Counted from the first letter of the stretch, positions 32,240-59,790 are shown. The stretch is DNA of 64,000 bases from Vibrio coralliilyticus (GCF_024449095.1 NZ_CP024628.1:372001-436000), one strand, 5' to 3'. Notes: generated by a model from the letters alone, not told the origin. A program made the numbers and translations.

Positions 32240-33217
32240 GTGAGTGCACCAAAAACAGATGCAGAGCTCAAGAAAGCTACGATACATGAAGCGGCGAAAA
32301 TCGCTGGTGTATCAATAGCTTCTGTTAGTAGAGCCTTGAATAACAAACCCGGAATCAGCGAGAAAACGAGAAAGAAAATACTCGAGATATGTAAAGAGTT
32401 GGGTTACGTCCCTAGTACCTCGGCGCGAGAACTTACCGGTAGCCACAAGAATACAATTGCTATTTCTCTGGGACCACATGACTTTTACGCGTCTCGTTAC
32501 CTTGGAATGCTTTGGCCATCATTGTCGGCTGCTATTCGTAATTCAGGTCGGAATCTATTACCAGTCAGCTTTGGTGAAGTGGAGCTTGAACAGATTGGCG
32601 GAGCGGTGCTCCTTGGTATCACCAATGACGATCCGAGAATTGAAGCGTGTAAGAAAATGGAATTACCCTTCGTTTGTATTGGGATGAGTGAAGGTTCGTT
32701 TTGGGTTGCACCTGATGACTTCAATGGTGGTCGAGAAGCGACACAACACCTTGTAGATAAAGGTCTGACCGATATTTGCTTCGTCACACCAACCACTTAT
32801 GGCGATGGTTATCAGTTTAGACATCAAGGTTACATGTCCGTCATGGCAAGCAACGCTTTACCTGTCAGAGAGCTACGGACTGGTGCAGAACCGTTGGGAG
32901 AAATCGCGGCGTATCGCTTCTTTACGCAAATGGAACGTAAACAGCTTGAAGGCTATCAAGGTTTTGTATGTGAGTGTGATGAAACCGCTTTGGGCGTGAT
33001 TGCGGCATTAAAAGACCGTGGTTACTCGATTCCTGAAGATTTTTCCGTAGTTGGTTACGACGGGTTACCGGGGATATCGAAGGAGCTGACAACCGTTGTT
33101 CAAGATACGGATAAAATTGCTGAACGCGTAGCGAGCATGCTAGAACAAGCGATTTTGCGAGAGCAACCTGTAGGTTCTATCGTTCCTGTAGGCTTAAAAT
33201 TGGGTAAAACGACGTAA
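32240..33217 (+). CDS. LacI-family transcriptional regulator of carbohydrate locus A
   Basis: This 325-residue repressor has a helix-turn-helix (ATIHEAAKIAGVSIASVSRALNNKPGISEKTRKKI) with hinge LGYVPSTSARELTG, followed by a periplasmic-binding-protein-like effector domain. I start at GTG 32240 (GGGAG upstream); an earlier TTG start at 32189 would run through the palindromic operator. It precedes the ABC-GH65 locus and faces the same direction, ending at a strong terminator before the operator at 33315. The inducer is probably a disaccharide or its breakdown product. Operators with ACGTAA half-sites are assigned to it by position. Confidence 0.88.
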   Translation: MSAPKTDAELKKATIHEAAKIAGVSIASVSRALNNKPGISEKTRKKILEICKELGYVPSTSARELTGSHKNTIAISLGPHDFYASRYLGMLWPSLSAAIRNSGRNLLPVSFGEVELEQIGGAVLLGITNDDPRIEACKKMELPFVCIGMSEGSFWVAPDDFNGGREATQHLVDKGLTDICFVTPTTYGDGYQFRHQGYMSVMASNALPVRELRTGAEPLGEIAAYRFFTQMERKQLEGYQGFVCECDETALGVIAALKDRGYSIPEDFSVVGYDGLPGISKELTTVVQDTDKIAERVASMLEQAILREQPVGSIVPVGLKLGKTT

Positions 33218-33246
33218 AAATAGATCAAATAATTAACAGAACACTC

Positions 33247-33277
33247 AAAAAGCATGACTTAAGTCATGCTTTTTTTA
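33247..33277 (+). terminator. Rho-independent terminator after lacI-A
   Basis: A perfect palindromic stem, AAAAGCATGACTTAAGTCATGC, broken here as AAAAGCATGAC and GTCATGCTTTT, with a run of seven T. It isolates the regulator from the locus A operon. Confidence 0.85.
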
Positions 33278-33314
33278 TTCTTAAACGTCATGAAAGCGTA
33301 ATGTGATCAACTTA

Positions 33315-33330
33315 ACGTAAGCGCTTACGT
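33315..33330. promoter_or_regulatory. LacI-A operator, ACGTAAGCGCTTACGT
   Basis: Perfect 16 bp palindrome, extended by TTA/TAA-like flanks, 51 bp before the binding-protein start. A TAATAC -10-like hexamer lies 10 bp on, so a bound repressor would cover the promoter. The half-site ACGTAAG differs at its centre from locus B (GTAACC). Confidence 0.75.
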
Positions 33331-33380
33331 AAAATGCGCATAATACTCTCAGATTTAAAGAAACGAGATTTGAGGGCACG

Positions 33381-34619
33381 ATGAAAAAAACAATATTAGC
33401 AGTATCCCTACTTGCTGCTGGCCTTTCTGCAAAAGTAGTCGCAAATACAGAAGTGACCATCGCCGGATGGGGTGGTAACGATGTTGTGGTTCTGAACAAG
33501 TTAGTGAACGAAGTTCTGACCGAAGATTTTAAGAAAGCAGGGCTTACTGTTAAGTATCAAGCTGTGGAAGGTGATTTCTCTCAGTTCATCACTAACTCTC
33601 TTTCCGCAGGAACCGCGCCAGATGCTTTCTACATCGATGTTGTAATGGCCAACGCGTTAGTTGGCTCGGGTAAGGTTGCTGTTAATGCGCCACAACTGGA
33701 CAAAGTCAGTACTAACATTATTCCAAGCCTAAACTCCGCGTTTACTCTCGAAGGTAAGCAGTACGGCGTCGCTAAAGATTTCAACACCATTGCACTGCAA
33801 TACAACAAAGACATCTTTGATGATGCGGAAGTTGCTTATCCAACGAATAAAGATTCATGGGAAGACTTACGTAAAAAACTTCTTGATGTGAAAGATGCTT
33901 TAGCGGATGAGGTATCAGGCATTTGTGTCATGCCTGATTATGCCCGTTTTGCGCCTTTTGCACTCTCAACTGGTTGGAAGCCATTCAATGAAGAAGGCAA
34001 AACCATTTTGGATGAAAACTTCGAACGTGCATTTAACTTCTACACTGGATTAGTAACAGAAGACAAAGTGGGTATTCTGGCAACGGACCTTGGTCAGGGT
34101 TGGGGTGGTGGTTGTTTCGGTACCGAAGAAACGGCTATTGCGTTAGAAGGTAACTGGATCAGTGGCTACTTACGCGATAAGGCACCGAACCTGCCTTACG
34201 GCACGACCTTGATGCCAAAAGATCCAGTAAGTGGTGAACGCGGAAACTTATTGTTCACTGTCGCTTGGGGCGTTAACGCAGATGGTAAGAACGTCGAAGC
34301 AACGCAAAAAGCGGTAGAAATTTTGACGAGCCAGAAAGCGCAGGAATGGGTATTGGATTCAGGCCTTGCTTTGCCAAGTCGTGAAGCTCTTGGTAAATCA
34401 GAGTTCTTCGCACAGCAGAAAGCAGAAAATGAACTTGCAAAACAAGTGTTTGATGGTGCTCTTGAAGGAAATGTAGAGCCATTCGCATTTGGAAATTACG
34501 GCACGGCATGGATGACTCCAATTAACGAAGCATTGAATTCAGTGTTGCTTGGTCAGATGACACAAAAAGAAGCGATCAAAATGGCACAAGCGAAATACGA
34601 TACACTGACAGCGAAGTAA
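33381..34619 (+). CDS. Locus A sugar-binding periplasmic protein (CUT1 ABC)
   Basis: This 412-residue binding protein has a signal peptide cleaved after about residue 22 (AKVVA-N) and the family 1 extracellular solute-binding fold (VTIAGWGGNDVVVLNKLVNEV; YGVAKDFNTIALQYNKDIF; ALEGNWISGYL). It captures an oligosaccharide in the periplasm and delivers it to the two permeases that follow. It is the first structural gene after the LacI-A operator, and is followed by only 11 bp before the first permease. Specificity is not readable; the cytosolic enzymes suggest an alpha-glucoside. Confidence 0.9.
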   Translation: MKKTILAVSLLAAGLSAKVVANTEVTIAGWGGNDVVVLNKLVNEVLTEDFKKAGLTVKYQAVEGDFSQFITNSLSAGTAPDAFYIDVVMANALVGSGKVAVNAPQLDKVSTNIIPSLNSAFTLEGKQYGVAKDFNTIALQYNKDIFDDAEVAYPTNKDSWEDLRKKLLDVKDALADEVSGICVMPDYARFAPFALSTGWKPFNEEGKTILDENFERAFNFYTGLVTEDKVGILATDLGQGWGGGCFGTEETAIALEGNWISGYLRDKAPNLPYGTTLMPKDPVSGERGNLLFTVAWGVNADGKNVEATQKAVEILTSQKAQEWVLDSGLALPSREALGKSEFFAQQKAENELAKQVFDGALEGNVEPFAFGNYGTAWMTPINEALNSVLLGQMTQKEAIKMAQAKYDTLTAK

Positions 34620-34630
34620 CGGGGCGAGTG

Positions 34631-35725
34631 ATGAACTCTTTACGTTTACGCCAACAAGTTTATGGATGGCTCCTTGCTGGGCCATTTGTACTGACTTTGG
34701 TGGTGTTCTTTCTTTATGCGTTGGTTAGAACGGTTTACTTCAGTTTTACTGAGTACGACTTGTTCAGCGATGCAATCTGGGTCGGTCTGGCAAACTTCAA
34801 AGCACTGCTTACCGATGATCTGTTTTTACTTTCTTTGGCTAACACCGTTTGGTTTTCTCTGATTGTAACGTGTGTGCAAACTGTTTTGGCACTCGGCTTA
34901 GCAATTTTAGTCAACTCAAAAATTCGTGCCAAAAGCTTCTTTAGAACGGCATTTTACTTACCGAGTATTTTGTCGAGTGCCGCTGTCACCTTGATCTTCA
35001 TTTGGTTCTACCAAAAGAACGGTTACTTAAATGGCTTTGTGACGGATGTTGTCAATCACTACCCGCACCTGAGCTGCTTTGCGCTTGTGGCCATTGTGAC
35101 TCAGTTTGTCTTGGTGACGAAAGACCGGATGAAAGGTCTGCCTGTCGGTTGGTTTGATCCAGCATGGGCGATACTTTCCTTCATCATTGCGGGCGTAGCG
35201 ACTTTTGTGGCGAGTGCAGTGGGTTGGATTGAAGTGACGAAAGACGTGGTTGAGGTCAACTGGCTCAACACTCGTGATAACGTCGGTCCAATGCCTTTGA
35301 CTCTGTGGGCAATTGTCATTCAGAACATTTACACCACGATTCCAACTTTCATGTTGTTGTTCTTAGCCGGTTTACAAGGCATTCCGGGTGAGCTTTATGA
35401 AGCGGCTCATATTGATGGTGCAAACAAATGGCAGCAGCACTGGAACATTACGATTCCTCAGCTTGCACCAGTGACATTTGTTGTCGTGACTTTCTCAATC
35501 ATTGGTACGTTGCAGATGTTTGACCAAGTGGCACTGCTTGGCTCGGCAGCACCATTAGAGTCTCGCATTACTCTGGCGTACTACGTATATCACAATGCGT
35601 TCCCACCAGGTGGCACTCCGCAAATTGGTATGGCAAGCGCAGCGGCATTGGTATTGGCGTTTATCACGCTGGCAGTGGTTTATCTGCAGAAAATCTTTGG
35701 AGTGAAGGAGAAAGCAGATGGCTAA
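34631..35725 (+). CDS. Locus A ABC permease, MalF-type with membrane insertion
   Basis: The 364-residue permease has the EAA loop (ELYEAAHIDGANKWQQHWNITIP) that docks the ATPase. Length exceeds the usual ~295 because residues ~130-215 carry an insert with two extra hydrophobic helices (FALVAIVTQFVLV; AWAILSFIIAGVATFVASAVGWI) before NTRDNVGPMPLTLWAI. Start chosen at ATG 34631 after GGGGCG; GTG 34628 is just upstream. It overlaps the next permease by 8 bp, giving coupled translation. Family firm; the role of the insert is unknown. Confidence 0.88.
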   Translation: MNSLRLRQQVYGWLLAGPFVLTLVVFFLYALVRTVYFSFTEYDLFSDAIWVGLANFKALLTDDLFLLSLANTVWFSLIVTCVQTVLALGLAILVNSKIRAKSFFRTAFYLPSILSSAAVTLIFIWFYQKNGYLNGFVTDVVNHYPHLSCFALVAIVTQFVLVTKDRMKGLPVGWFDPAWAILSFIIAGVATFVASAVGWIEVTKDVVEVNWLNTRDNVGPMPLTLWAIVIQNIYTTIPTFMLLFLAGLQGIPGELYEAAHIDGANKWQQHWNITIPQLAPVTFVVVTFSIIGTLQMFDQVALLGSAAPLESRITLAYYVYHNAFPPGGTPQIGMASAAALVLAFITLAVVYLQKIFGVKEKADG

Positions 35726-37136
35726 CCAAATGTCAGCAATCAACCATGAGGATGCAAAACCTATGGCATCTATGGAAGAGATTTCAAAGTTTCAAGCGCG
35801 TCGTCGCTGGGCGAAAGTAGCTTGGGTTTACAGTGCCTTACTACTCGTGGCTACAGTGATGTTAGGGACCTTCGTGGTGGCGTTCTTGGCGAGTCTGAAA
35901 GATGACCCGTTGGAGCAGCCATTTAAGTTCAACTTTGCTCAGGTTCAGCCTAGTAACTGGGGCGCGGCTTACCAGCTCGGTAAAGAAGGTAACGATGCGC
36001 CAATGTTCGGTGGTTTCGCTCCGGGCGCAGAAGTGAACTTCACCGTGACTTACGCGGTGGAAGACGGCAAGGAACTGAAAATACCTGAAATTGAAGTGCC
36101 ACGTCGTCGCCCTGGTACAGGTATGGCTGCGGCTATCGTGACCGACTTTGCTGCTGATTACGCAAAAGTCAGCGAGCCAGTGTTGGTAGACACTAACGAC
36201 AACGTGACGTTTGTAGAGAAGCGTGGTCGTCGTGAACTGACTAAGCAAGGCCACAGCCAAACGTGGGCATTTTCCATCAAGTATCAAGGTCAAGGTCCTG
36301 AGATTGCAACGCTACCACTAACCGTAGAAGCGCCGCGCGGGCAGGTTCTGATTGATAGCACACTAGCACCAAGCAAGATGGAACGTCGTGGTCGTGTAGC
36401 GGCTTGGGATAACGCAGCACCGGGTGTGATTGGTTACGTGTTTAAGTCTTACGTTCGCGTGTACACCGAGTCAGTCAGTTTAGAGACCGGTAAGAGCCTG
36501 TTCATGAGCTGGACCATCAACTCGTTCTTCATAGCGATTGGTAAGGTCATTCTGACCTTGTTCTTTGCATGTACTGCTGGTTATGCCTTAGCTCGATTGA
36601 AGTTCACTGGTGCCCGTGCTGTGTTTGCCTTCATGTTGTTCAGCATGATGATTCCGGGACAAGTAACCTTCATCTCTAACTACCTAATTTATAAAGATAT
36701 CGGCTTATTGAATACGCCATGGGCGGTCATTACGGCGGTCGTTGCTTCGGGTCAGGTCCTGATCATGAAACAGTTCTTCGAGAACATTCCGAAAGAACTG
36801 GAAGAAGCGGCAATCGTAGATGGCGCAAGCCCTGCTGTGATTCTTTGGAAGGTATTTATGCCACTGGCGAAGCCAGCCATCTTGTCGGTGACCATCCTTG
36901 GATTCCAAGGGGCATGGAACGACTTCTTCTGGCCTCTGGTGGTGATCAACAGCCCAGCTGATGCATTCACGCTTCCTGTTGGCCTATTGAGTTTACGTAA
37001 CGCCTATGGCGTAGCAGGTGACTGGAACCTGATCTTGGCGGGGGCTTTCCTGTCAACAATCCCAGTACTGATTGTATTTATGGTTTTCCAACGTTACTTC
37101 GTGGGTAACGATATTTCTTCCGCTGTTAAAGGTTAA
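35718..37136 (+). CDS. Locus A ABC permease, MalG-type with large periplasmic insertion
   Basis: This 472-residue protein is far longer than a typical MalG (~290). After a first membrane helix (residues ~32-58) comes an extracytoplasmic stretch, residues ~85-255, of beta-rich character (PGAEVNFTVTYAVEDGKEL; RRELTKQGHSQTWAFSIKY), then the normal permease core with EAA loop EEAAIVDGASPAVILWKVFMP. The insert faces the periplasm by topology and may bind the solute receptor or the sugar, like the P2 loop of MalF but in the other subunit. It overlaps the preceding permease by 8 bp. Confidence 0.88.
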   Translation: MANQMSAINHEDAKPMASMEEISKFQARRRWAKVAWVYSALLLVATVMLGTFVVAFLASLKDDPLEQPFKFNFAQVQPSNWGAAYQLGKEGNDAPMFGGFAPGAEVNFTVTYAVEDGKELKIPEIEVPRRRPGTGMAAAIVTDFAADYAKVSEPVLVDTNDNVTFVEKRGRRELTKQGHSQTWAFSIKYQGQGPEIATLPLTVEAPRGQVLIDSTLAPSKMERRGRVAAWDNAAPGVIGYVFKSYVRVYTESVSLETGKSLFMSWTINSFFIAIGKVILTLFFACTAGYALARLKFTGARAVFAFMLFSMMIPGQVTFISNYLIYKDIGLLNTPWAVITAVVASGQVLIMKQFFENIPKELEEAAIVDGASPAVILWKVFMPLAKPAILSVTILGFQGAWNDFFWPLVVINSPADAFTLPVGLLSLRNAYGVAGDWNLILAGAFLSTIPVLIVFMVFQRYFVGNDISSAVKG

Positions 37137-37154: not shown

Positions 37155-39497
37155 ATGTTTATGAACTACAACGCTGGTCAAGGCGAACTAAAAAACTGGA
37201 TCGTTGAAGAGACGGCTTTTGACTCAGCTTTCCAAGGTAAATGTGAAGTAGTAATGAGCCAAGGAAATGGCTACATGGGCGCGCGTAGTGCAACGGAAGA
37301 AAAATACGTGGGACAGGTTCGCAACCTTTTTGTTGCGGGTACTTACAACAAGTTTGACGCAGACGAAGTGACCGAGCTGCCAAACTCTGCAGACATGAGT
37401 GCGATTGAAATCTTCATTGATGGCCGTCGTTTTCACCTAGAAACAGGCGAGGTAAGCAACTACTCTCGTCGTCTGAACGTGAAAAACGGTGAACTCATCC
37501 GTGAATTCACTTGGACAAACACAGAAGGCAAGAGCTTCGAGATGCGCTTCCGCCGTTTCTTCTCGCAAGCAAACCTTCATCTAATGGCATTCGACGTTCA
37601 AGTTAAAGCTTTAAACAGCGATGCGAAAATCGAAATCCGCTCTGGTGTGGACGCGCAGCTTTCTAACTCAGGCGCACAGCACTTCCACGAAGGTGAAAAG
37701 CGTATTTACGACAAGCGTTTTATCGAGCTTCTGCAGCACACCACAGAAAGCAAAGTAGACTTTGTATTCCTAACATCTCACCGCTACCTTGTGGATGGTC
37801 AGGAAATTGAGATTGACCCAGGTCTGCAAATGGACCGCCGTAAAGTATGGCTAAACATCCACCACGATCTGAAAGCGGGCGAAACGTTCGGTACAGAGAA
37901 AGTTGGTGTGGTGCACACCTCTCGCGATAAGCAGTTCGACGTTGAAGGATACGAACTTCAGGCTTTGCGTGACCATGCGTTGACTAACCTTAAAAACAAT
38001 GCAGACCGCAGCTTTGATGAGCTTTTAGAAGAGAGTGCAGCAGAGTGGGACAAGCGTTGGGCAGGCATGAACATCACCATCGGTGGTAATGACTTTGACC
38101 AACTGGCGATTCGTTTTGCGCAGTACCAACTGAACATCTTCACGCCAATGCACGATTCTCGTTTCGGTATCGGTGCGAAAGGTCTGTCTGGCGAAGGCTA
38201 CAAAGGCCACTCGTTCTGGGATACAGAAGTTTTCATGCTTCCGTTCTTCATCTACACAATGCCAGAAGTGGCTCGCAGCCTACTAGAGTACCGCTTCCGC
38301 ACGCTAGGAGGCGCACGTAAGAAAGCAGCAGACAACGGTTACCTAGGTGCACAGTTCCCATGGGAATCAGCGCTAACAGGTGAAGAAGTAACGCCAGTAT
38401 GGGGCGCGGTAGATATCATTACAGGTAAGTCGACTAAGATCTGGTCTGGCTTTATCGAGCAGCACATCACATGTGACATCACTTACGCATTGTGGCAGTA
38501 CTACCAAATCACAGGTGACCAGAAGTTCATGGACGACATGGGCTACGAGATCATGTTCGACACAGCAACGTTCTGGACTAGCCGTCTAGAGTGGCTAGAA
38601 GATCGAGAGATGTGGGGCATCTGCAATGTTATCGGTCCTGATGAGTACAAAGAGCACATCGACAATAATGCGTTCACTAACTACATGGCAGTAGAGAACA
38701 TCAAGCTGGCGATTCGTTACTACGAAGATCTAGAAACGTCTAACCCAGAACTACTGGCTAAGCTTTCTGACAAGCTAAACCTAATTGAAGCTCGCAAGAT
38801 GTGGCTAGAGCGCGTAGACAACATCTACCTGCCACAGCCACGTGAAGAAGATAAGGTTATTCCACAGGATGACACTTACCTGCAGAAAGAAATCATTGAC
38901 CTGACTAAGTACAAAGAGCAGCCATTCGTCGGTGGTCTGTTCCAGGACTACAACCTAGAGCAGGTTAACGAGATGCAGGTTTCTAAGCAGGCGGACATCA
39001 TGGTGCTGTTCCTTCAGCAAGAAGATAAGTTCGACCTTGAAACTAAGCTAGCAAACTGGAACTACTACGAGCCGAAGACGCTACACGATTCATCGCTGAG
39101 CTTATCTACGCACTCGGTATTGGCGTCAGATGTGGGTAACCCAGAGCTGTCTTACGATCTGTTCCAACAGGCTGCATCTATCGACATCGGCCAGAACATG
39201 AAGAGTTCGGATCACGGTATTCACGCGGCGTCTATCGGCGGCATGTGGCAGTGTGTAGTTTACGGTTTTGGTGGCGTACGTATGCTAGGTGGCAACCTGC
39301 GTATTAACCCTAACCTTCCAAAAGAGTGGGACAGCCTGAACTTCCCAATCTACTGGAAAGGTGAGCGTTTGGAAGTAACGGTAGATCAAGAGCAAGTTCG
39401 TATTGAACGCCCTGAATTCAACGGCCAAGCGCTAAACATCGAAGTTGCAGGCGAGCCACGTGTTATCGATTCAACAGAGGTGACTTTCAATGTGTAA
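37155..39497 (+). CDS. GH65 disaccharide phosphorylase
   Basis: A cytosolic 780-residue inverting phosphorylase. It has the GH65 N-terminal beta-sandwich, the (alpha/alpha)6 barrel with the acid Glu497 in NVIGPDEYKEHIDNNAFTNY, phosphate-site residues in LHDSSLSLSTHSVLASDVG and the C-terminal GFGGVRMLGG segment. It splits an alpha-glucoside with phosphate into beta-glucose-1-phosphate, which the next gene's mutase turns into glucose-6-phosphate. GH65 members act on maltose, trehalose, kojibiose, nigerose or glucosylglycerol; I cannot tell which, since the specificity loop (~residues 410-430) matches none with certainty. Overlaps pgmB by 8 bp. Confidence 0.93.
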   Translation: MFMNYNAGQGELKNWIVEETAFDSAFQGKCEVVMSQGNGYMGARSATEEKYVGQVRNLFVAGTYNKFDADEVTELPNSADMSAIEIFIDGRRFHLETGEVSNYSRRLNVKNGELIREFTWTNTEGKSFEMRFRRFFSQANLHLMAFDVQVKALNSDAKIEIRSGVDAQLSNSGAQHFHEGEKRIYDKRFIELLQHTTESKVDFVFLTSHRYLVDGQEIEIDPGLQMDRRKVWLNIHHDLKAGETFGTEKVGVVHTSRDKQFDVEGYELQALRDHALTNLKNNADRSFDELLEESAAEWDKRWAGMNITIGGNDFDQLAIRFAQYQLNIFTPMHDSRFGIGAKGLSGEGYKGHSFWDTEVFMLPFFIYTMPEVARSLLEYRFRTLGGARKKAADNGYLGAQFPWESALTGEEVTPVWGAVDIITGKSTKIWSGFIEQHITCDITYALWQYYQITGDQKFMDDMGYEIMFDTATFWTSRLEWLEDREMWGICNVIGPDEYKEHIDNNAFTNYMAVENIKLAIRYYEDLETSNPELLAKLSDKLNLIEARKMWLERVDNIYLPQPREEDKVIPQDDTYLQKEIIDLTKYKEQPFVGGLFQDYNLEQVNEMQVSKQADIMVLFLQQEDKFDLETKLANWNYYEPKTLHDSSLSLSTHSVLASDVGNPELSYDLFQQAASIDIGQNMKSSDHGIHAASIGGMWQCVVYGFGGVRMLGGNLRINPNLPKEWDSLNFPIYWKGERLEVTVDQEQVRIERPEFNGQALNIEVAGEPRVIDSTEVTFNV

Positions 39498-40122
39498 GGC
39501 ATTCATTTTCGACCTAGATGGCGTCATTACCGATACCGCAGAGCTGCACTACCAAGCGTGGCAACGTATGGCGAACGAAGAAGGTTACTACTTCGACCGC
39601 GAAATCAACGAACAGCTGCGTGGTGTGTCTCGTCAGGCGTCTTTGAACATCATCCTGAACGGGAAAGAGATCAGCGAAGAGAAGTTTGCAGAGTTGATGA
39701 AGCGCAAGAACGATTATTACGTGGATCTGCTGAATACGATTTCTGCAAAAGACGTTCTACCAGGTATTGAGCAATTTCTACTTGAGTTAAATGCACGTGG
39801 CATCAAAGTCGCGTTGGCGTCAGCAAGTAAGAATGCTCGTCCTATTCTTCACCGCCTTGGCCTAACGCCACTGTTTGATGCGATTGGTGACGGCTGGTCA
39901 GTGCAGCGCTCTAAACCAGCGCCGGACGTGTTCATCCATGCGGCGGGCCAAGTTGGTGTAAACGCTGACGAGTGCATCGTGGTTGAAGATGCAGAAGCAG
40001 GTGTAGACGCGGCAAAAGAAGCGGGAATGCGTGTTGTCGGTATTGGTCCTAACGACCGAGTTGGTCACGCGACATGGCGCTTCGATGATACTGCCAAGCT
40101 GACTTTGGCTGAAATCCTGTAG
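39490..40122 (+). CDS. pgmB: Beta-phosphoglucomutase
   Basis: This 210-residue HAD enzyme has the beta-PGM signature: FIFDLDGVITDTAELHYQAW (nucleophile Asp8, acid/base Asp10), cap-domain LRGVSRQASLNIIL, VALASASKNA, SKPAPDVF and VVEDAEAGVDAA. It interconverts beta-glucose-1-phosphate and glucose-6-phosphate. Its overlap with the GH65 gene fits a shared pathway feeding glycolysis. A hairpin follows at 40136-40153 before the ATPase gene. Confidence 0.95.
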   Translation: MCKAFIFDLDGVITDTAELHYQAWQRMANEEGYYFDREINEQLRGVSRQASLNIILNGKEISEEKFAELMKRKNDYYVDLLNTISAKDVLPGIEQFLLELNARGIKVALASASKNARPILHRLGLTPLFDAIGDGWSVQRSKPAPDVFIHAAGQVGVNADECIVVEDAEAGVDAAKEAGMRVVGIGPNDRVGHATWRFDDTAKLTLAEIL

Positions 40123-40135: not shown

Positions 40136-40153
40136 GGGCGAGCTTGCTCGCCC
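40136..40153 (+). other. Intercistronic hairpin
   Basis: GGGCGAG/CTCGCCC with CTTG loop, extended by AATG/CATT partial pairing, lies between pgmB and the ATPase gene. There is no T-tract, so it likely shapes mRNA stability. Confidence 0.5.
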
Positions 40154-51377: not shown

Positions 51378-51381
51378 AGTG

Positions 51382-52194: not shown

Positions 52195-52273
52195 CCAGTA
52201 CTAACTACTTTTTATACAAATTGATGCGTGAGGCGAGTTGGCGGCACGCTTAGAAAAATTGATAGGTAAAACT

Positions 52274-53398
52274 ATGGCAGCAGTAACCCTTAAGGGCATT
52301 GAAAAACAGTATGACAACGGTTTTAAGGCCGTGCATGGCATTGATCTCGATATCAAAGAAGGTGAGTTCATGGTCTTTGTCGGCCCATCAGGCTGTGCAA
52401 AATCCACTACACTTCGCATGATCGCTGGGTTGGAGAGTATTTCGGGAGGTGAGCTACACATTGGTGGTCGGTGCATGAATGATGTGCCATCGAAAGACCG
52501 TGGTATTGCTATGGTGTTCCAAGATTACGCTCTGTATCCACATATGACAGTGTATGACAACATGTCATTTGGTCTTAAAGTGGCGAAGTTACCTAAAAAC
52601 GAGATCGATCAACGGGTGCGCGAAGCGGCAGAAAAACTTCAAATCACAGACCTCCTTGATCGCAAACCTTCAGAAATGTCGGGAGGGCAACGTCAGCGTG
52701 TTGCGGTCGGACGAGCCATTGTGCGTAAGCCCGATGTGTTTTTATTCGATGAACCATTATCAAATTTAGACGCTAAGCTACGTGTCTCGATGCGTGTACG
52801 TATTACCAGTTTACATAGAGAGTTAAAGAAATCAGGTCAGCCAGCCACCATGATATACGTGACTCATGACCAGGTCGAATCGATGACGATGGGTGACCGT
52901 ATCTGTGTGCTTAACCAAGGGCGCATCATGCAGGTGGATACTCCAATGAATTTATATAACTACCCAGCCAACAAGTTTGTAGCGGGTTTCATTGGCTCCC
53001 CTGCGATGAATCTAATGAAAGCCAAACTGGTCCAAGAGGGAGGTGATATCGCAGTTGAACTTGGTAAACATCGTTTCACCCTGCCAGCCGAAAAAGCTAC
53101 GAAAGTACAAACTCACGTAGGAAAAGAGATATGGTTTGGCTCTCGCCCTGAATACATAGGTAATGCGGAAACGCACCCTGAATGTGTAGAAAACAGTTTT
53201 ACAGAAGAGATCTTAACCCTTGAGAGAATGGGCTTTGAAGAAAATATTTACTTCGAAGTTGATGGACAGCCGTGTAGTGCACGGATCCCACATGAAAAAG
53301 CAGGGGAAAGTGATGTGGGTAATCAATACACATTCTGCATCGACATGAATAAATGCCATATCTTCGATATGGAAACTGAACAAAATATTTCACTGTAA
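52274..53398 (+). CDS. Locus B ABC ATPase (MalK/UgpC type), Walker A variant
   Basis: The 374-residue ATPase has signature MSGGQRQRVAVGRAIVRKP, Walker B VFLFDEPLSNLDAKLRVSMR, switch His in THDQVESMT and a C-terminal TOBE-like domain. Its Walker A is GPSGCAKST, with Ala in place of the last Gly before Lys (codon GCA). The Lys and Ser are kept, so nucleotide binding is probably intact. The ATG at 52274 follows TAGGTAAA; a frame extends upstream without a good ribosome site. Precedes the GH3 gene by 14 bp. Confidence 0.92.
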   Translation: MAAVTLKGIEKQYDNGFKAVHGIDLDIKEGEFMVFVGPSGCAKSTTLRMIAGLESISGGELHIGGRCMNDVPSKDRGIAMVFQDYALYPHMTVYDNMSFGLKVAKLPKNEIDQRVREAAEKLQITDLLDRKPSEMSGGQRQRVAVGRAIVRKPDVFLFDEPLSNLDAKLRVSMRVRITSLHRELKKSGQPATMIYVTHDQVESMTMGDRICVLNQGRIMQVDTPMNLYNYPANKFVAGFIGSPAMNLMKAKLVQEGGDIAVELGKHRFTLPAEKATKVQTHVGKEIWFGSRPEYIGNAETHPECVENSFTEEILTLERMGFEENIYFEVDGQPCSARIPHEKAGESDVGNQYTFCIDMNKCHIFDMETEQNISL

Positions 53399-53412: not shown

Positions 53413-55728
53413 ATGAGTATTACGCCACGAGAAATCGACATACAACAGCAAGTTGAATTATGGATGCAAGAACTTACGGTCAGTGAGAAATGTTCGCTGC
53501 TTTCAGGCTCGGGCTTTTGGCATTCGCAAAACGTTGATCGACTAAATATTCCTAAGTTAATGCTAACGGATGGCCCACATGGTTTACGTAAACAAGGTGA
53601 AAAAGAAGATCACCTAGGTCAAAACGAGAGTGTACCGGCCACTTGTTTTCCTTCGGAAGCTGGTTTAGCGGCGTCATGGAGCCGAGAACTTGCTTATGCC
53701 CAAGGTCGTGCGATTGGCGTAGAGTGCCGTGCGGAAAATGTCAATGTCATCCTTGGTCCTGGCCTGAATATCAAACGCTCACCATTATGCGGACGCAATT
53801 TTGAGTATTTGTCTGAAGACCCGTATCTGTCATCACACATAGGTGCAGCTTACATTCAAGGTGCGCAGTCTGTAGGCGTTGGTACATCAGCGAAGCATTT
53901 TGCTTGTAATAACCAAGAGACCAAACGTTTAACAATTAATGCAAAAATTGACCAGCGCACATTGAACGAAATTTATTTGGCAAGCTTTGAAACAGCAGTT
54001 AAAGAAGCTAACCCTTATACCATCATGTGTGCCTACAATCAGGTTAATGGAGAGTACGGCGCAGAGAGTCAGTTCCTGCTTAATGAGGTACTACGCAAGC
54101 AGTGGAACTGGGATGGTGTGGTAGTAACTGATTGGGGCGCAACCAACAGCCGCATTAAGGGCTTGCTAGCAAGCATGGATCTTGAGATGCCTTCATGTGG
54201 CGGTGTCAACGATAAAAAGGTAGAAGCGGCTTTAGAGGGTAATGCAGAGCTAATGTTAGCGCTTGATGAGTCAGTTCGTCGTATTTTGATGCTAATACTG
54301 CGTACCACATACAATCTGCCAGAAGTCGAAGGATTTGATGCCCAGCGTCATCATGAAATTGCTCGGGAAATTGCCCATGAGAGTATGGTCCTGCTTAAGA
54401 ATGAACAGCAAGTTCTCCCATTGAAAGTAAGTGATTCAATCGCGGTATTGGGCGAGTTTGCACAAACACCTCGTTATCAAGGGGGAGGTAGTTCGCACAC
54501 TAATCCAACGAAGGTCACGAGCACTTGGGATTCAATGCAGCAGTACTCGCAATCTCTCGAGTTCATGCAAGGTTTTGGGATCTATGATGAAAAGTGTGAT
54601 GCTGCTAAGTTAGAGCAAGCTAAAGCCCTAGCTGCAAGCAAAGACAAGGTAGTTATTTGTGGCGGCTTACCTGAGCGTTATGAGACGGAAGGTATTGATC
54701 GTACACACCTTAGCTTGCCGAAAGCGCAGCTAGAGTTCATCGCAGAAATCACTAAAGTAAACCCTAATGTTGTCGTGGTACTAAACAATGGGGCTCCGGT
54801 AGAGATGCCTTTCGCCAACGAAGTTAAAGCCATTTTGGAAGCTTACCTGCCGGGGCAGGCAGGGGGAGATGCCATTGCTGATGTATTGTTTGGAGTGGTA
54901 TCCCCAAGTGGCAAATTAGCAGAAACTTTCCCACTTAAACTCGAGCACACTTCAAGTTATGAGTATTTTCCAGGTGAGGGCTATGAAGTCACGTATCGTG
55001 AAGGGATTTACGTTGGTTATCGTTTCTTTGAAACCAAGAAGTTGCCTGTGCTATTTCCGTTCGGCCATGGTTTAAGCTACAGCCACTTCAAATACCACAA
55101 CCTGCGCCTTTCGCAACGTCATATTCGTGATGATCAGACGCTACAAGTGTCGGTTGATGTCACGAATAGTGGTGACATTGACGCGAAAGAAGTGGTACAG
55201 CTTTATATCTCAGATCATCAATCGGAAGTATTACGGCCAGAGATTGAATTAAAAGGGTTTGAGAAGCTCAGCCTACGTGCTGGCGAGACTCAAACGGCGC
55301 ATTTCGTACTAGACAAACGTAGTTTTGCCTTCTTTGATGAAAAGTTAGCAGACTGGCGTGTTCAAAGTGGTCAGTTTGATATTCGTATTGGAGCCTCATG
55401 CCAGGATATTAGACTAACGGAAACCGTCAGTGTTGAGTCGACAACAAAAATTCCGTTTATTGTTCATCCCAATACCACCTTTGGTGAGCTGCGTGCTCAT
55501 CCGGCAACGAAAGCGTATGCTGATGAGCTGATAGAGTATTTTATTGAGCATTCAGGGATCGATTTCAATCTTGGTGATAATGACGAGAACTTCGCAGAAA
55601 CGGTGATTTCATTCTTCCCAATCAAAAATATGGTGTTGTTCTGTAAATCGAAGTTCACTGAATCAGAGCTTGAGCAAGCGTTAGATACGTTAACTATGCA
55701 AGTAGCTGACTTTGAAGAGGTAGTGTAA
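53413..55728 (+). CDS. GH3 beta-glucosidase (cytosolic)
   Basis: A 771-residue GH3 enzyme: N-terminal TIM barrel with substrate-binding GPHGLRKQ and CGRNFEYLSEDPYLSS, nucleophile Asp240 in GVVVTDWGATNSR, alpha/beta sandwich with GGGSSHTNP, fibronectin-III-like domain (VSVDVTNSGDIDAKEVVQLY), and a C-terminal helical extension of ~80 residues. No signal peptide, so it cleaves beta-glucosides after import. The specific linkage is not evident. Its stop TAA overlaps the ATG of the next gene by one base. Confidence 0.92.
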   Translation: MSITPREIDIQQQVELWMQELTVSEKCSLLSGSGFWHSQNVDRLNIPKLMLTDGPHGLRKQGEKEDHLGQNESVPATCFPSEAGLAASWSRELAYAQGRAIGVECRAENVNVILGPGLNIKRSPLCGRNFEYLSEDPYLSSHIGAAYIQGAQSVGVGTSAKHFACNNQETKRLTINAKIDQRTLNEIYLASFETAVKEANPYTIMCAYNQVNGEYGAESQFLLNEVLRKQWNWDGVVVTDWGATNSRIKGLLASMDLEMPSCGGVNDKKVEAALEGNAELMLALDESVRRILMLILRTTYNLPEVEGFDAQRHHEIAREIAHESMVLLKNEQQVLPLKVSDSIAVLGEFAQTPRYQGGGSSHTNPTKVTSTWDSMQQYSQSLEFMQGFGIYDEKCDAAKLEQAKALAASKDKVVICGGLPERYETEGIDRTHLSLPKAQLEFIAEITKVNPNVVVVLNNGAPVEMPFANEVKAILEAYLPGQAGGDAIADVLFGVVSPSGKLAETFPLKLEHTSSYEYFPGEGYEVTYREGIYVGYRFFETKKLPVLFPFGHGLSYSHFKYHNLRLSQRHIRDDQTLQVSVDVTNSGDIDAKEVVQLYISDHQSEVLRPEIELKGFEKLSLRAGETQTAHFVLDKRSFAFFDEKLADWRVQSGQFDIRIGASCQDIRLTETVSVESTTKIPFIVHPNTTFGELRAHPATKAYADELIEYFIEHSGIDFNLGDNDENFAETVISFFPIKNMVLFCKSKFTESELEQALDTLTMQVADFEEVV

Positions 55729-57248
55729 TGGGCTGGATGGACGAAGCAGAAAAAGGCATTGCCATTGTTCATGAGCAGAAACAGACCAATTTCGTGGAGC
55801 TGTATGTTGACTCTGAAGTACGCGGTGACAATGTTTTTATTGGCAAGGAAGCAGAGGGCAGACCTCTGCCAAGTTTTGAGCAGATACAAGATAAATTACC
55901 AGTCATTGAGTGGGGTTCTAGCCCTGATGTGGTCGCAGGATATTGGAAAACTTGGCAAATTGCGTTCAGTAACCTGCGTCAACCTACGCGAGAGAATGGG
56001 TTTGTCTCTAACTTTATTGACACGGCATTTAATGGTCATTTGTTCATGTGGGACAGTGCGTTCATTACCATGTTTGGTAAATATGCTCACCATTTATTCC
56101 CTTTTATTGGGACGTTAGACAATCTGTATGCTAAGCAGATGCTTGATGGTTTTATCGGACGTGAGCTGTCAATTGAAACAGGTCAGAACCATTTTCACCG
56201 TCATGACCCGAGCTCTACAGGGCCGAATATCTTGCCATGGGCGGAGTGGCAACATTATCAACAAATGGGTGATAAACAGCGATTAAGTGATGTTTTTGTT
56301 CCTATTTTGGCGCTTCATCGGTGGATCGCAGACAACCGTACTTGGAAAGATGGGACGTATTGGGGATGTGGCTGGTCATGTGGTATGGACAACCAACTGA
56401 GGGTCGATAAGAAAAAGTACGATTATTCACATCATAGCCACTCATCGTGGATTGATGTGACTTTGCATCAATATTTGTCCGCTACTTTACTGCTTAAAAT
56501 GCAGGAAGAGTTAAATACTGATGAGAATCTGTCTGATATTGAAGCAGAAGTGGAAAACCTCAAGCAGGTTGTTAACGAGAAAATGTGGGATGAATCTCGC
56601 CAGTTTTATTTTGATACTTTGCGTGATGATTCTTTCTCATCGATTAAATCGATTGCTCCTTATTGGGCGCTATTGACGGATATGGTTCCCGATGAGCGAT
56701 TAGCACCGTTTGTTGCTCATCTTAATGACGAGAACAGTTTCAAAAGACCGCATCGAATACCCACGATGTCTGCAGATTGCGAACACTATACACAAACTGG
56801 CGATTATTGGCGTGGTGGTGTATGGGCACCAACTAACTATATGGTGCTCAAAGGACTTGAAGAGAAGGGGTTCCACGATCTTGCATTTGATATCGCCACC
56901 AATCATGTTGCCCATGTAGCTAAGGTTTTTTCTCAGACAGGAACGTTATGGGAAAACTATGCTCCAGAGATTATTCAACAAGGAACACCTGCGAAAAGTG
57001 ATTTTGTTGGTTGGACAGGGTTAAGTTTAGTCAGCATTCTGATCGAGTTTGTGTTTGGCATTAAGATCGATGTTCCGAATAACAAGCTTGTTATTCGTCC
57101 CAAACTTGCTGATGAGTATGCGATAACTCAATTGCAGTTTGGTCCATTAGGTCAAGTCGACATTCATGTTGCCGCGAAAGCAAAGAGCATTGGCTCTCGC
57201 GTTACGGTTACCACAGACCTTGATATTGAAATTGAAGTGATCGAATAA
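55728..57248 (+). CDS. GH63/GH37-like (MGH-type) alpha-glycosidase
   Basis: This 506-residue cytosolic (alpha/alpha)6-barrel protein has GHLFMWDSAFITMFGKY (candidate acid Asp109) and GTLWENYAPE (candidate base Glu409), plus YWRGGVWAPTNYMVLKGL, the pattern of the trehalase/mannosylglycerate-hydrolase-like group. Members hydrolyse alpha-mannosyl- or glucosylglycerate, trehalose or other alpha-glucosides by inversion. Which one applies is not evident. It overlaps the GH3 stop by one base (TAATG) and is followed by a hairpin and the second GH13_4 gene. Confidence 0.8.
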   Translation: MGWMDEAEKGIAIVHEQKQTNFVELYVDSEVRGDNVFIGKEAEGRPLPSFEQIQDKLPVIEWGSSPDVVAGYWKTWQIAFSNLRQPTRENGFVSNFIDTAFNGHLFMWDSAFITMFGKYAHHLFPFIGTLDNLYAKQMLDGFIGRELSIETGQNHFHRHDPSSTGPNILPWAEWQHYQQMGDKQRLSDVFVPILALHRWIADNRTWKDGTYWGCGWSCGMDNQLRVDKKKYDYSHHSHSSWIDVTLHQYLSATLLLKMQEELNTDENLSDIEAEVENLKQVVNEKMWDESRQFYFDTLRDDSFSSIKSIAPYWALLTDMVPDERLAPFVAHLNDENSFKRPHRIPTMSADCEHYTQTGDYWRGGVWAPTNYMVLKGLEEKGFHDLAFDIATNHVAHVAKVFSQTGTLWENYAPEIIQQGTPAKSDFVGWTGLSLVSILIEFVFGIKIDVPNNKLVIRPKLADEYAITQLQFGPLGQVDIHVAAKAKSIGSRVTVTTDLDIEIEVIE

Positions 57249-57249
57249 A

Positions 57250-57272
57250 AGTAGGTGGGTTTCCCACCTACT
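57250..57272 (+). other. Hairpin between GH63-like and GH13_4 genes
   Basis: AGTAGGTGGG/CCCACCTACT stem with TTT loop two bases past the stop, without a strong T-tract. It could partly end the upstream transcript. Confidence 0.5.
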
Positions 57273-57307
57273 CCTGTTAAGTAGTCCATTTAAGTATTAA
57301 AAATGCC

Positions 57308-59233
57308 ATGTTAAATGAAAAGCAAACCCAACAAGCTCTCCAACAAGTGCTTGATTCAGTAGAGCTACCTAAATTCACCAAAAAAGACGAAAAGGTGTTT
57401 CTTGAACGCCTAGCACAGCATTTCCCATCTTTGGTTGGGCAACTGCACACGCTTTACGGCGAACGTTATGATTTTTTCTTGCACCTACAAAATCTGGTGG
57501 TGGTGCTTGCCAAGGCCTTTTCTAGTCGTAAGCGTAAATGGAAAAACCTGGATGAGAAGCGACTTAAAGATCCAGCTTGGTATCGTAGTGAAAAGATGCT
57601 CGGCATGGCCGTGTATGTGGATCTGTTTGCTGGAGACTTGCAGAAGCTGAAGCAGAAAATTCCTTACCTAAAATCACTGGGTGTTAACTATCTGCATCTG
57701 ATGCCGCTCTACAAAGCGCCCGAAGGGGATAGCGATGGTGGCTATGCGGTATCGGACTACCGCAAAGTGGATCCCAAACTGGGTACGGAGAAAGATCTGG
57801 CGCAGCTCGCTGAGGCGTTGAGTGATGAAGGCATCAGTTTGGTGCTGGATTTTGTATTCAATCATACCTCTGATGAGCATAAATGGGCGGTTGAGGCACG
57901 CAGAGGTAACCCCGAGTTTGAAGATTTTTATTACTTCTTCACCGATAAAAAGGAAGTGGATGAGTACAACCAAACCTGCCGAGAGATCTTCCCAACCGTT
58001 CGTCGTGGCAGCTTTACATTCTTAGAGGATGTAGAGAAGTACGTTTGGACCACATTCAACAGCTTCCAATGGGATCTCAATTACTCAAATCCAGCGGTGT
58101 TTAACGCCATTACCGATGAAATGTTGTTCCTCGCCAATATTGGTTGTGAAGGGTTACGTCTTGATGCGCTCGCATTCATTTGGAAAGAGAAATGGACCCA
58201 ATGTGAAAGCTTGCCGAAAGCACACACGCTGATTCAGTGTTTCAACACCTGTTTACAGATCGCAGCGCCTGCTGTGTTGTTCAAATCAGAAGCGATTGTT
58301 CACCCTGACGAAGTGGCACAGTACATCGACAAGCAAGAGTGTCAGTTATCCTACAACCCACTGATGATGGCATTGATGTGGGAGAGCTTGGCAACACGTG
58401 AAACCAAGCTACTGACAGCATCTCTAAAGAAAAGCTTCGAGATTTCAGACCAATGTTCATGGGTCAACTACATTCGTTGTCATGATGATATTGGCTGGAC
58501 GTTTGATGATGCGGTGGCAGAGCAGCAAGGTATTAACGGCTATGATCACCGTCGCTTTTTGAATCAGTTCTATACCGGCAAGTTTGAAGGCTCATTCTCA
58601 CAAGGTGTGCCATTCCAAGAAAACCCGACGACGGGTGATTGCCGCGTGTGTGGCTCATTAGCATCTCTAGCGGGTTTAGAAAAAGCGATAGACACAGATG
58701 ATGCACAAGCGATTGAACATGCTTTGAAGCGTATCCGCTTGCTTAACAGCATCAACCTTAGCATCGGTGGTATTCCGTTGATTTACCAAGGAGACGAACT
58801 GGGTATTTTAAATGACCACAGCTACTTGAATGATAAGTTCAAACGCGATGATGCACGTTGGGTAAATCGTCCTGCTATTTCGCCAGCGGCAGTTGAACTT
58901 GCTGAGCAAAAAGGGAGTTATCAACACCGTATTAATCAAGAACTAAAACAGATGATAGCTTTACGCCAAAATCACCCAGAGTTAGGGAATGCCAAAACAG
59001 AAATTCTAGAAACTTATCGTTCGCAACTTTTTGCTTACTGCCGTACTAACGCAAAGGGTGAGCAACTTCTCGCTCTGTGTAATTTTGGTGAAATGGAGCA
59101 AACAATCCCTGCATCAATATGCGATATTTTGGGCACTCGACAGACGAAGGATCTGCTTTCTGGCAAGTATTTCCTCGGCGATGAGATTGTTTTATCAGCC
59201 TACGATGTGCTGTGGTTAAAGGTAAATGCGTAA
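57308..59233 (+). CDS. Amylosucrase-like GH13_4 enzyme, copy B
   Basis: A 641-residue amylosucrase-like enzyme with the same catalytic positions as copy A (Asp286, Glu328, Asp393) and all pocket motifs. Within the shared block it differs from copy A only at a few residues (for example Phe for Leu in LPKFTKKDE; Ser for Gly in FSSRK; EQQGING). From DDARWVNRP onward the C-terminal domain is clearly different, and copy B lacks an insert. It would work on sucrose in the cytosol. Ribosome site is weak; the ATG overlaps nothing. The Maa gene start overlaps its stop (TAATG). Confidence 0.88.
   Translation: MLNEKQTQQALQQVLDSVELPKFTKKDEKVFLERLAQHFPSLVGQLHTLYGERYDFFLHLQNLVVVLAKAFSSRKRKWKNLDEKRLKDPAWYRSEKMLGMAVYVDLFAGDLQKLKQKIPYLKSLGVNYLHLMPLYKAPEGDSDGGYAVSDYRKVDPKLGTEKDLAQLAEALSDEGISLVLDFVFNHTSDEHKWAVEARRGNPEFEDFYYFFTDKKEVDEYNQTCREIFPTVRRGSFTFLEDVEKYVWTTFNSFQWDLNYSNPAVFNAITDEMLFLANIGCEGLRLDALAFIWKEKWTQCESLPKAHTLIQCFNTCLQIAAPAVLFKSEAIVHPDEVAQYIDKQECQLSYNPLMMALMWESLATRETKLLTASLKKSFEISDQCSWVNYIRCHDDIGWTFDDAVAEQQGINGYDHRRFLNQFYTGKFEGSFSQGVPFQENPTTGDCRVCGSLASLAGLEKAIDTDDAQAIEHALKRIRLLNSINLSIGGIPLIYQGDELGILNDHSYLNDKFKRDDARWVNRPAISPAAVELAEQKGSYQHRINQELKQMIALRQNHPELGNAKTEILETYRSQLFAYCRTNAKGEQLLALCNFGEMEQTIPASICDILGTRQTKDLLSGKYFLGDEIVLSAYDVLWLKVNA
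57338..58872 (+). repeat. Duplicated GH13_4 block, copy B (pairs with 44166-45700)
   Basis: Partner of the locus A block, offset 13172 bp, same orientation and length. A direct repeat this long could support deletion or duplication of the intervening 13 kb by recombination. Confidence 0.85.
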
Positions 59234-59790
59234 TGAGAAGTGAAAAAGAAAAAATGCTCGCTGGTGAGCCCTATGATGCATGGGACAAGCAACTTTATGG
59301 TGAGCGTATTGAATGTCGCAAAGTGTTGCAAAAGCTCAATAATAGCATTCCTGATACGGCTGAATGGCGAGACGCAATAGACACCCTAATTCCTGGCTCT
59401 GAAGGTGCCTTTTTAGAACCACCATTTCGCTGTGATTATGGCTCCAATATTAAGTTGGGTAAAAACTTCTACGCCAACTTTAACTGTGTTGTGCTAGACG
59501 TTGCAGAAGTTCGTATCGGTGACAACGTATTGTTTGCACCGAATGTACAAATCTATACCGCTGGTCACCCATTAGATGTTAAAGGTCGAGTGGAGGAGGG
59601 GGTGGAGTTTGGCACGCCTATTACCATTGGCGACAATGTATGGCTGGGTGGCGGTGTTATCGTCTGTCCGGGCGTATCCATTGGTGAGAACAGTGTGATC
59701 GGTGCAGGCAGTGTGGTGACGAAAGAGATTCCACCTAATGTCGTTGCGGCAGGAAACCCTTGCAAAGTAATAAAACCAATTGAGCAATAA
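59233..59790 (+). CDS. maa: Maltose O-acetyltransferase homologue
   Basis: A 185-residue hexapeptide-repeat acetyltransferase. It aligns with E. coli Maa: SEKEKMLAGEPYDAWDKQL, AFLEPPFRCDYGSNIKLG, the active-site His in IYTAGHPLD, and the left-handed helix repeats (IGDNVWLGGGVIVCPGVSIGENSVIGAGSVV). It acetylates maltose, glucose or related sugars with acetyl-CoA in the cytosol, perhaps to relieve sugar excess. Its ATG at 59233 overlaps the GH13_4 stop by one base, so it belongs to locus B and is translationally coupled. Confidence 0.9.
   Translation: MRSEKEKMLAGEPYDAWDKQLYGERIECRKVLQKLNNSIPDTAEWRDAIDTLIPGSEGAFLEPPFRCDYGSNIKLGKNFYANFNCVVLDVAEVRIGDNVLFAPNVQIYTAGHPLDVKGRVEEGVEFGTPITIGDNVWLGGGVIVCPGVSIGENSVIGAGSVVTKEIPPNVVAAGNPCKVIKPIEQ

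Follow-up and report, generated by a model that had tools for sequence, protein, structure and literature searches.

The 64,000-nt stretch of DNA analysed here (the window) lies on contig C2 of a Vibrio-type genome (G000, 5.02 Mb) and carries two sugar loci, locus A at 32240-46115 and locus B at 46288-59790. Each has a LacI-family regulator and a CUT1 importer, together with cytosolic glycosidases and a protein that is a porin or porin-like. Sequence comparison indicates that the two are not parallel, as an earlier note on this DNA had described them, because locus B is an insertion that splits the tail of locus A. Our preferred reading, which we place somewhat above even, is that locus A would be an operon for glucosylsucrose and that locus B would be a beta-glucoside module recombined into it. 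The gene sets are not chance assemblages, since both modules are met again, each as a whole, elsewhere in the genus Vibrio. Protein families were assigned by Pfam, NCBIfam and Protein Data Bank (PDB) sequence searches, and identities among window proteins and to the ycj proteins were obtained by BLAST-type comparison. The statement in the earlier note that both loci hold a LacI protein, a CUT1 transporter, cytosolic glycosidases and a GH13_4 enzyme was borne out at the coordinates that follow, with the porin of locus B a presumptive one.

Joining of the two loci

Descent of the two loci from an ancient paralogous duplication was rejected, because the GH13 pair alone is close between them (88% identity) and the other shared components stand at 30-50% (ATPases 50%, LacI proteins 37%, permeases about 30%). 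Identity within the GH13 pair, taken by 100 residues, is 94-100% up to residue 500 and then 59% and less, and recombination explains why this pair alone is close.

An undisturbed form of the site, GH32-GH13-Maa, is found in genome G128, which has no locus B (its sole MGH-family match scores 32.2 bits). The window covers the GH13 stretch of G128 twice, the second alignment, to GH13-Maa, running from 57307 to 59885 at 87.3% identity. When compared with G128 in 100-column steps, GH13_4 copy 1 (44136..46115, plus strand) showed 97% identity in its 5' flank, 81-98% to about column 1600 and then 33-65%, so that its 5' part is locus A-like and its 3' end of another lineage. Copy 2 (57308..59233, plus strand) has a donor-like 5' flank at 50%, a body at 63-94% and a locus A-like 3' end at 84-97%, which extends from about column 1700 into the gene for a maltose O-acetyltransferase-like protein (Maa; 59212..59790, plus strand; PF12464; NF007499 224.9 bits, under the cut-off of 314). 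Between the two copies, identity is 90-100% over columns 100-1300, and stretches of up to 200 bp match exactly; the copies lie as direct repeats 13,172 bp apart. Copy 1 thus runs from host to donor and copy 2 from donor to host, as a GH13-bearing insert would leave them, which argues that locus B very probably entered by homologous recombination within the GH13 gene of locus A. The GH13_4 of the incoming locus would have recombined with that of locus A to give two chimeric direct repeats, presumably from a circular or tandem form of the donor. By the same comparison, Maa and the 3' part of copy 2 appear to descend from locus A, not B, and Maa adjoins GH32-GH13 in G033, G206 and G128. The gene list first given for locus B, namely GH3, a GH63/MGH-like enzyme and Maa, therefore holds for the genes present, but its last member belongs by descent to locus A.

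Locus B also occurs without its neighbour. Of 226 other Vibrio genomes, 4 (G163, G158, G165 and G035) have a gene 70-86% identical to that for its MGH-like enzyme, and 62 others gave weak matches only. In G158 and G163 it stands alone as LacI-SBP-permease-permease-ATPase-GH3-MGH (SBP, sugar-binding protein) without GH13, and in V. maritimus (G165) it ends with its own GH13 after MGH. G158 has both loci, on separate contigs, and among the genomes compared they are adjacent only in that of the window. One observation weighs against entry by recombination: no exact donor was found. The closest relative for the 3' end of copy 1, G001, matches it at just 80.7%, and the locus there is an A, not a B. 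Being nearest to G001 and unlike G128, the 3' end of copy 1 is taken to come from another lineage. The want of a known donor also suits a different history, in which the GH13 pair arose by duplication within the genome and locus B was then transposed between the copies, as does the near identity of the copies over columns 100-1300 with its 200-bp exact stretch. We regard this history as improbable, because simple duplication does not give the G001-like 3' end of copy 1 and because the V. maritimus locus B already has a GH13 after MGH. The 13.17-kb direct-repeat structure could be excisable or amplifiable, and the A-B fusion would show that sugar operons are combinable, a shared enzyme gene providing the homology for insertion and chimeric repeats being left behind.

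Locus A and its candidate substrate

The combination of GH65, beta-phosphoglucomutase (beta-PGM), GH32 and an amylosucrase-type GH13_4 in locus A fits the breakdown of alpha-1,2-glucosylsucroses (sucroglucans), as together these enzymes would cut the alpha-1,2-glucosyl bond plus the sucrose bond. An OmpG-type porin and the CUT1 importer would bring the oligosaccharide in, GH65 would phosphorolyse each alpha-1,2-linked glucose to beta-glucose 1-phosphate, and beta-PGM would turn this product into glucose 6-phosphate. The sucrose core would then be split by GH32, or alternatively it would be used by GH13_4, with glucose passing to glucan or water and fructose freed. From the gene content and an operator-like site, both of which are present, we infer the substrates, the reaction directions and the regulation of this proposed glucosylsucrose operon. 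The pairing of GH65 with GH32 remarked on in the earlier note is there (PF03632, PF00251), and enzymes of the sucrose, alpha-glucoside and beta-glucoside types are supported in the region as it had anticipated.

The specificity of GH65 enzymes can be read from six correlated positions, which are EEAPxx in kojibiose phosphorylases (KPs) and KV[MF]NES in maltose phosphorylases (PMC8537180, in the text available). At these positions (64, 392, 394, 402, 416 and 585 of CsKP) the GH65 of the window (37155..39497, plus strand; PF03632 393.8 bits, 9.4e-118) reads EEAPWN and so carries the KP motif. Six aligned Vibrio relatives read EEAPWN or EEAPWS, and EEAP is found in all of the 120 homologues listed out of 3090. 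A distant homologue in G079 (28-31% identity) has the maltose-type KVFN, and EEAP was present in one of six further homologues from gammaproteobacteria (31-35%, BLAST), the remaining five having another residue at position one or three. Kojibiose-binding Trp391 and Glu392 and a +1-subsite Thr have been named for FjGH65A and are said to be conserved in CsKP (PMC8626586, in the text available). The first two correspond to W403 and E404 here. CsKP T417, which from alignment we take to be the equivalent of the threonine, is S431 in the window protein, and a serine is also found in the confirmed KP YcjT. The SSLS stretch of CsKP, presumably the phosphate site, is kept (LHDSSLS at 643). The nearest PDB sequence is that of a kojibiose phosphorylase (3wiq, 439 bits), ahead of a glucosylglycerol phosphorylase (4ktp, 353 bits). 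Taken together, these features make it likely, in our view with good confidence, that the predicted action of the enzyme is on alpha-1,2-glucosides.

The earlier note had also put forward glucosylglycerol and glucosylglycerate as substrates. Foraging for either compound, with GH65 or the GH63-like enzyme of locus B as the key step, is very improbable. A GH65 glucosylglycerol phosphorylase does exist, as 4ktp illustrates, but at CsKP positions 392 and 394 the window GH65 has E and A and the 2-O-alpha-glucosylglycerol phosphorylase of B. selenitireducens I and G, and the score of the window GH65 to 3wiq is higher. Glucosylglycerol was rejected as a leading candidate. The broader suggestion of osmolyte foraging survives in a modified form, as a hypothesis on photosynthate osmolytes.

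Phosphorolysis of glucosylsucrose is chemically expected, because the KP of T. brockii is reported to carry out the reverse transfer, glucosylating position 2 of glucose in raffinose, stachyose, 1-kestose, nystose and sucrose (PMC1994063, as far as its text is available). Sucroglucans, which are alpha-1,2 derivatives of sucrose, occur in salt-stressed Anabaena (PMC4390843), and a sucrose alpha-1,2-glucosyltransferase makes glucosylsucroses (PMC9909042). These sugars are a series of solutes that cyanobacteria form under salt and heat stress. Their yearly amount has been estimated as 1.5 to 3 billion tons (PMC9909042).

Locus A is a conserved but patchily distributed Vibrio operon, as judged from its recurrence. 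A search with GH13 covered 227 Vibrio genomes including that of the window; 28 of the 226 others matched at E 1e-80, and the surroundings were examined for 17 of these 28. The series LacI-SBP-permease-permease-GH65-beta-PGM-ATPase-OmpG-GH32-GH13 was present in seven (G033, G052, G001, G206, G128, G242 and G158), three of which (G033, G206 and G128) have Maa 3' of GH13. An eighth locus A, in G240, shows permease 2-GH65-beta-PGM-ATPase-OmpG-GH32-Maa in the stretch examined. GH32 lies beside this GH65 in all eight of these other Vibrio loci. Seven of the eight contexts were found through GH13, a sampling that possibly favours the GH65-GH32 linkage, and for this reason a search with GH65 alone was added over 138 Vibrio genomes, again with that of the window included. 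Five of the 137 others matched at E 1e-200 (G001, G033, G052, G158 and G240), and all five have GH32 beside GH65. At E 1e-220, GH65 matched none of 393 other genomes sampled across the order.

The operon has probably moved between lineages after the genomes diverged, since window positions 32161-45701 align in one piece of about 13.5 kb to G128 at 96.4% identity, as against 76-78% in the shared flanks (two stretches compared, 30028-31952 and 63227-63999). Vibrio sp. THAF64 has locus A arranged as in G128. Among the 120 GH65 protein homologues listed are those of V. owensii (96%), Aeromonas enteropelogenes (89% and 73%), Serratia fonticola (79%) and Enterobacter (78%).

Several observations count against glucosylsucrose as the dedicated substrate. 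The locus A of G240 lacks an adjacent GH13, and in G001 (L044) the genes for GH65, the ATPase and GH13 are all broken, each running over two frames, which may reflect real operon decay or an assembly fault. Glucosylsucrose reports, in the source text available, come from Anabaena/Nostoc and a Thermosynechococcus enzyme. Bacillales relatives of the GH65 (51-59% identity) were without a GH32 by BLAST within about 8 kb in 27 of 27 loci, all 27 of which have a CUT1 importer part near GH65; the sample was the 27 of 296 genomes that hold GH65 at 51-59%, the group being the order of a Paenibacillus genome. A Cetobacterium relative (60%), which also shares the OmpG gene, has no GH32 annotated within 9 kb. 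A cluster in Exiguobacterium, in which GH32 overlaps GH65 and the fingerprint is EEAPWN, stands on the other side. Because the Bacillales and Cetobacterium loci go without GH32 and the Exiguobacterium one has it, this GH65 clade would serve more than one alpha-1,2-glucoside, and the link to sucrose would be a local coupling.

Locus A might be read as a generalist for alpha-glucosides and sucrose, with GH65 for kojibiose or other alpha-1,2-glucosides of diverse origin, with GH32 and GH13 for plain sucrose, and with no one glucosylsucrose as its target. KPs act on kojibiose and several acceptors, which speaks for this alternative and also tells against glucosylsucrose, and the relatives just described that lack a detected GH32 point the same way. 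A single importer and a single operator site serve the entire series, however, and GH65 and GH32 are linked in 8 of 8 other Vibrio loci. A separate pair on contig C1 is a further point against it: a phosphotransferase system (PTS) IIBC protein (TIGR01996, the best model, 430 bits, below the 559-bit cut-off) adjoins a ScrB-type GH32 (493.9 bits, cut-off 356.4), and this pair may serve plain sucrose. A further GH32 was likewise present in 7 of the 8 other carriers of locus A (11 genomes searched). Because the GH65 clade would serve several alpha-1,2-glucosides, we name glucosylsucrose as the main substrate of locus A only tentatively, somewhat short of even, and keep the generalist as a serious but lesser possibility.

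Three side observations concern related genes. A GntR/UTRA-type regulator, not a LacI-type ScrR, precedes the PTS IIBC-ScrB pair (C1 2217300-2221200, L167). Many of the GH65 operons in the Paenibacillus order (L193-L209) include a protein of 730-770 aa; two of these proteins were scanned (L193 and L197) and gave weak MGH1-like or rhamnosidase-like matches. In G163 (L052), another GH13_4 adjoins a separate importer cluster that includes a pair of GH32 genes, a pair of genes of dehydrogenase type and LacI genes; by its content this is a different sucrose- or fructan-type locus.

The genes of locus A all lie on the plus strand. The LacI gene (32240..33217; PF00356, PF13377) has a longest open reading frame (ORF) from 32189, and its start at 32240 is supported by relatives of 325 aa. 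It is followed by the SBP gene (33381..34619), whose product had no Pfam match at 0.001 and was assigned by phmmer against PDB sugar-binding proteins (best 5f7v, 1.9e-15). Permease 1 (34628..35725) and permease 2 (35718..37136), both PF00528, precede GH65, after which come beta-PGM (39490..40122; TIGR01990 251.6 bits, cut-off 189.4), a MalK-type ATP-binding cassette (ABC) ATPase (40144..41310; PF00005, PF17912, PF08402) and the OmpG-family porin (41492..42502; PF16946 381.8 bits, 2.9e-114). The cytosolic GH32 (42661..44142; PF00251; motifs WMNDPNG, RDP and EC) has 493 aa from its start, which from comparison with relatives is probably 42661; its longest ORF begins at 42520, the 493-aa form matches G033 and G242, and other relatives are longer, with an ORF of 540 aa in G128. 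At 42595-42611, between OmpG and this start, the sequence could form a hairpin followed by a T tract, as in a terminator, and because it precedes GH32 the GH32-GH13 pair may be partly uncoupled from the remainder of the locus.

The nearest PDB match of GH13 copy 1 is N. polysaccharea amylosucrase (658 bits). The two agree at 20 of 20 compared positions, a chosen set of catalytic and sucrose-pocket residues; among them are D286, E328, H392, D393, D394, R226, R415, R446 and R509. Copy 1 is thus predicted to be of amylosucrase type, with the catalytic D286/E328 and the residues of the sucrose pocket in place. Copy 2 also carries three catalytic motifs.

Locus B and the candidate operators

Locus B probably imports and breaks down beta-glucosides, as suggested by a GH3 of the beta-glucosidase B type (53413..55728, plus strand; PF00933, PF01915, PF14310; PDB 7ms2 804.7 bits) next to an MGH1/GH63-like glycosidase of an uncharacterised subfamily (55728..57248, plus strand; 506 aa; PF22422 129.2 bits, 3.6e-37). 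It would be an independent beta-glucoside module with its own importer and LacI regulator. When the GH63-like protein alone was compared with PDB, the matches were a Chaetomium alpha-glucosidase (4.5e-10), TTHA0978 (4.8e-8) and YgjK (3.8e-7); with a profile of 18 members the top match was E. coli YgjK (1e-19), and TTHA0978 reached 2.2e-13. Residues D221 and E409 are invariant in the alignment, and E409 aligns with E727 of YgjK. TTHA0978 (2z07) is the Thermus mannosylglycerate hydrolase. Its rank as second-best PDB sequence for the single protein, and the naming of PF22422 after mannosylglycerate hydrolase, are what favour a glucosylglycerate substrate. The glucosylglycerate hydrolase (GH63) model NF047898 gave only 37.1 bits against a 550-bit cut-off, YgjK leads the profile of 18 relatives, and glucosylglycerate was rejected as a leading candidate. 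For the glucosylglycerate hydrolase MhGgH, a catalytic Asp/Glu pair and substrate residues are described (PMC6608630, in the text available).

The neighbourhood of MGH genes gives a mixed picture. Of 401 confirmed loci 80 were kept, and 73 were used after 3 Vibrio loci and 4 others were left out. Outside Vibrio no consistent MGH neighbours were found, with no Pfam family in more than 3 of the 56 ORFs scanned (78 adjoining on the same strand), a result that weighs against the beta-glucoside module. Of the 80 loci, 8 contain a GH3 homologue, and 5 of these 8 are from outside Vibrio, which lends it slight support. In V. mediterranei the MGH gene lies near genes for an ExoP-type GH3 and an Opp-type importer. 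In an Epulopiscium sp., a surgeonfish gut symbiont, SBP-permease-permease genes stand before MGH (L140 6875-11506), and the importer parts are 51-62.5% identical to those of locus B. The target might instead be an alpha-glucosidic or mixed heteroside, with the GH63-like protein as the main enzyme and GH3 acting on the second part. The GH63 relatives (YgjK and the processing glucosidase) act on alpha-glucosides, and a GH13_4 follows MGH in G165. We nonetheless think this substrate less likely than beta-glucosides, since the GH3 is of beta-glucosidase B type, the V. mediterranei MGH gene has the GH3 and importer neighbours just named, and locus B in G158 and G163 is without GH13.

The other genes of locus B begin 3' of a terminator-like hairpin with a 13-pair stem (46213..46242, listed on the minus strand), which separates GH13 copy 1 from the LacI gene (46288..47253, minus strand; PF00356, PF13377). 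On the plus strand follow a gene for an orphan protein of 284 aa (47693..48547), the SBP gene (49152..50426; PF13416; PDB 9xor 3.9e-32), permease 1 (50502..51377; PF00528), permease 2 (51382..52194; PF00528; its start placed by comparison with relatives of 270 aa, the longest ORF opening at 51331) and the ABC ATPase (52238..53398; PF00005, PF17912). The 284-aa protein, in which the N-terminus is signal-like and the C-terminal residue a Tyr, is presumably porin-like. It had no Pfam match, and a protein search gave one entry at 99%, apparently the window's own. Its gene sits between the LacI and SBP genes, flanked by two copies of the operator region, and is absent from 3 of 3 locus B relatives (L048, L049 and L051).

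The palindrome GTAANCGNTTAC occurs exactly three times in the window. One occurrence, the candidate operator GTAAGCGCTTAC at 33317..33328, lies about 50 bp 5' of the SBP start of locus A, and the other two are GTAACCGGTTAC at 47444..47455, 5' of the porin-like gene, and at 49039..49050, 5' of the SBP gene of locus B. Three more sites have one mismatch, two of which are imperfect candidates 5' of the locus B LacI gene (47297..47330). These six matches compare with a mean of 1.52 in shuffled sequence, and six were reached by 1 of 100 shuffles, an optimistic estimate because the pattern was picked after the repeats had been seen; relatives are the better test. All 7 relatives of locus A that were examined have one GTAA[GA]CGCTTAC, and all 3 of locus B have GTAACCGGTTAC. 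No match was present in two further stretches, L052 and L053, that lie close to a GH13 or MGH gene, and the remaining 2.80 Mb of compared loci contain 8 matches, all in further A or B copies (L022, L045, L062, L064, L148 and L168). The LacI repressor of locus A would control its locus through GTAAGCGCTTAC, and that of locus B would act with GTAACCGGTTAC. That the two palindromes are related yet different suggests that the two modules are separately controlled.

Comparison with known systems

The layout had been thought to be without a described counterpart. For the core of locus A this does not hold, as the E. coli ycj-ompG system described below has it, but no description was found of that core coupled to GH32 and amylosucrase, or of locus A fused to locus B. 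A search of open-licence papers, a limited negative, gave no description of a ycj-type core with GH32 and GH13_4 or of such a fusion, and no glucosylsucrose-consuming bacterial pathway or operon was found in the open-licence literature. If locus A is a glucosylsucrose pathway, it connects the nutrition of vibrios with the stress physiology of cyanobacteria and provides a set of enzymes for a rare sugar. We suggest more speculatively that it could be the first recognised glucosylsucrose-dedicated operon, spread horizontally among vibrios and fused here to a beta-glucoside module through a recombinogenic amylosucrase gene.

Sucrose scr genes of Vibrionaceae vary in presence and move horizontally (PMC7690375). 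Those clusters comprise PTS IIBC, ScrB, ScrK and ScrR, unlike locus A, and the terms 'ABC transporter', 'phosphorylase' and 'amylosucrase' do not occur in the accessible text of that source. The amylosucrase of N. polysaccharea (GH13_4) shares all 20 compared positions with copy 1, which differs in lying in an import operon with GH32 and whose activity is predicted.

Two partial counterparts lie outside the vibrios. Plasmid p1-UTDF19-27C of Exiguobacterium acetylicum has, like locus A, a GH65 (55.5% identity) with EEAPWN, an overlapping GH32, beta-PGM, CUT1 genes and LacI. It differs in coming from a Gram-positive organism without a porin and in having an alpha-glucosidase in place of GH13_4; its importer, beta-PGM and alpha-glucosidase genes lie on the opposite strand, and the cluster is known from annotation alone. 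Cetobacterium somerae has LacI-SBP-permease-permease-GH65-beta-PGM-OmpG in the same order as locus A (GH65 60%, OmpG 28%), but the annotation shows neither GH32 nor GH13 nor an ATPase next to it.

The closest described layout is the E. coli ycj-ompG system (YcjMNOPQRSTUV, OmpG and YcjW), which shares with locus A a LacI regulator, a CUT1 SBP with two permeases, GH65, beta-PGM, an ATPase gene and OmpG. Identity is 37% for the GH65 KP and 47% for beta-PGM; the two OmpG proteins gave no BLAST match at E 1e-3, and the ATPase gene is a pseudogene in K-12. The GH65 fingerprint is EEAPWN in locus A and EEAPAS in YcjT. Locus A is without the YcjQRS dehydrogenases/epimerase and a close YcjM, as YcjQ, YcjR and YcjS had no match among 26 window proteins compared and GH13 is just 26% identical to YcjM; it has GH32 and the amylosucrase-type GH13_4 instead. 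As judged from gene content, the core of locus A (GH65, beta-PGM, CUT1 importer, OmpG-type porin and LacI) is that of ycj-ompG.

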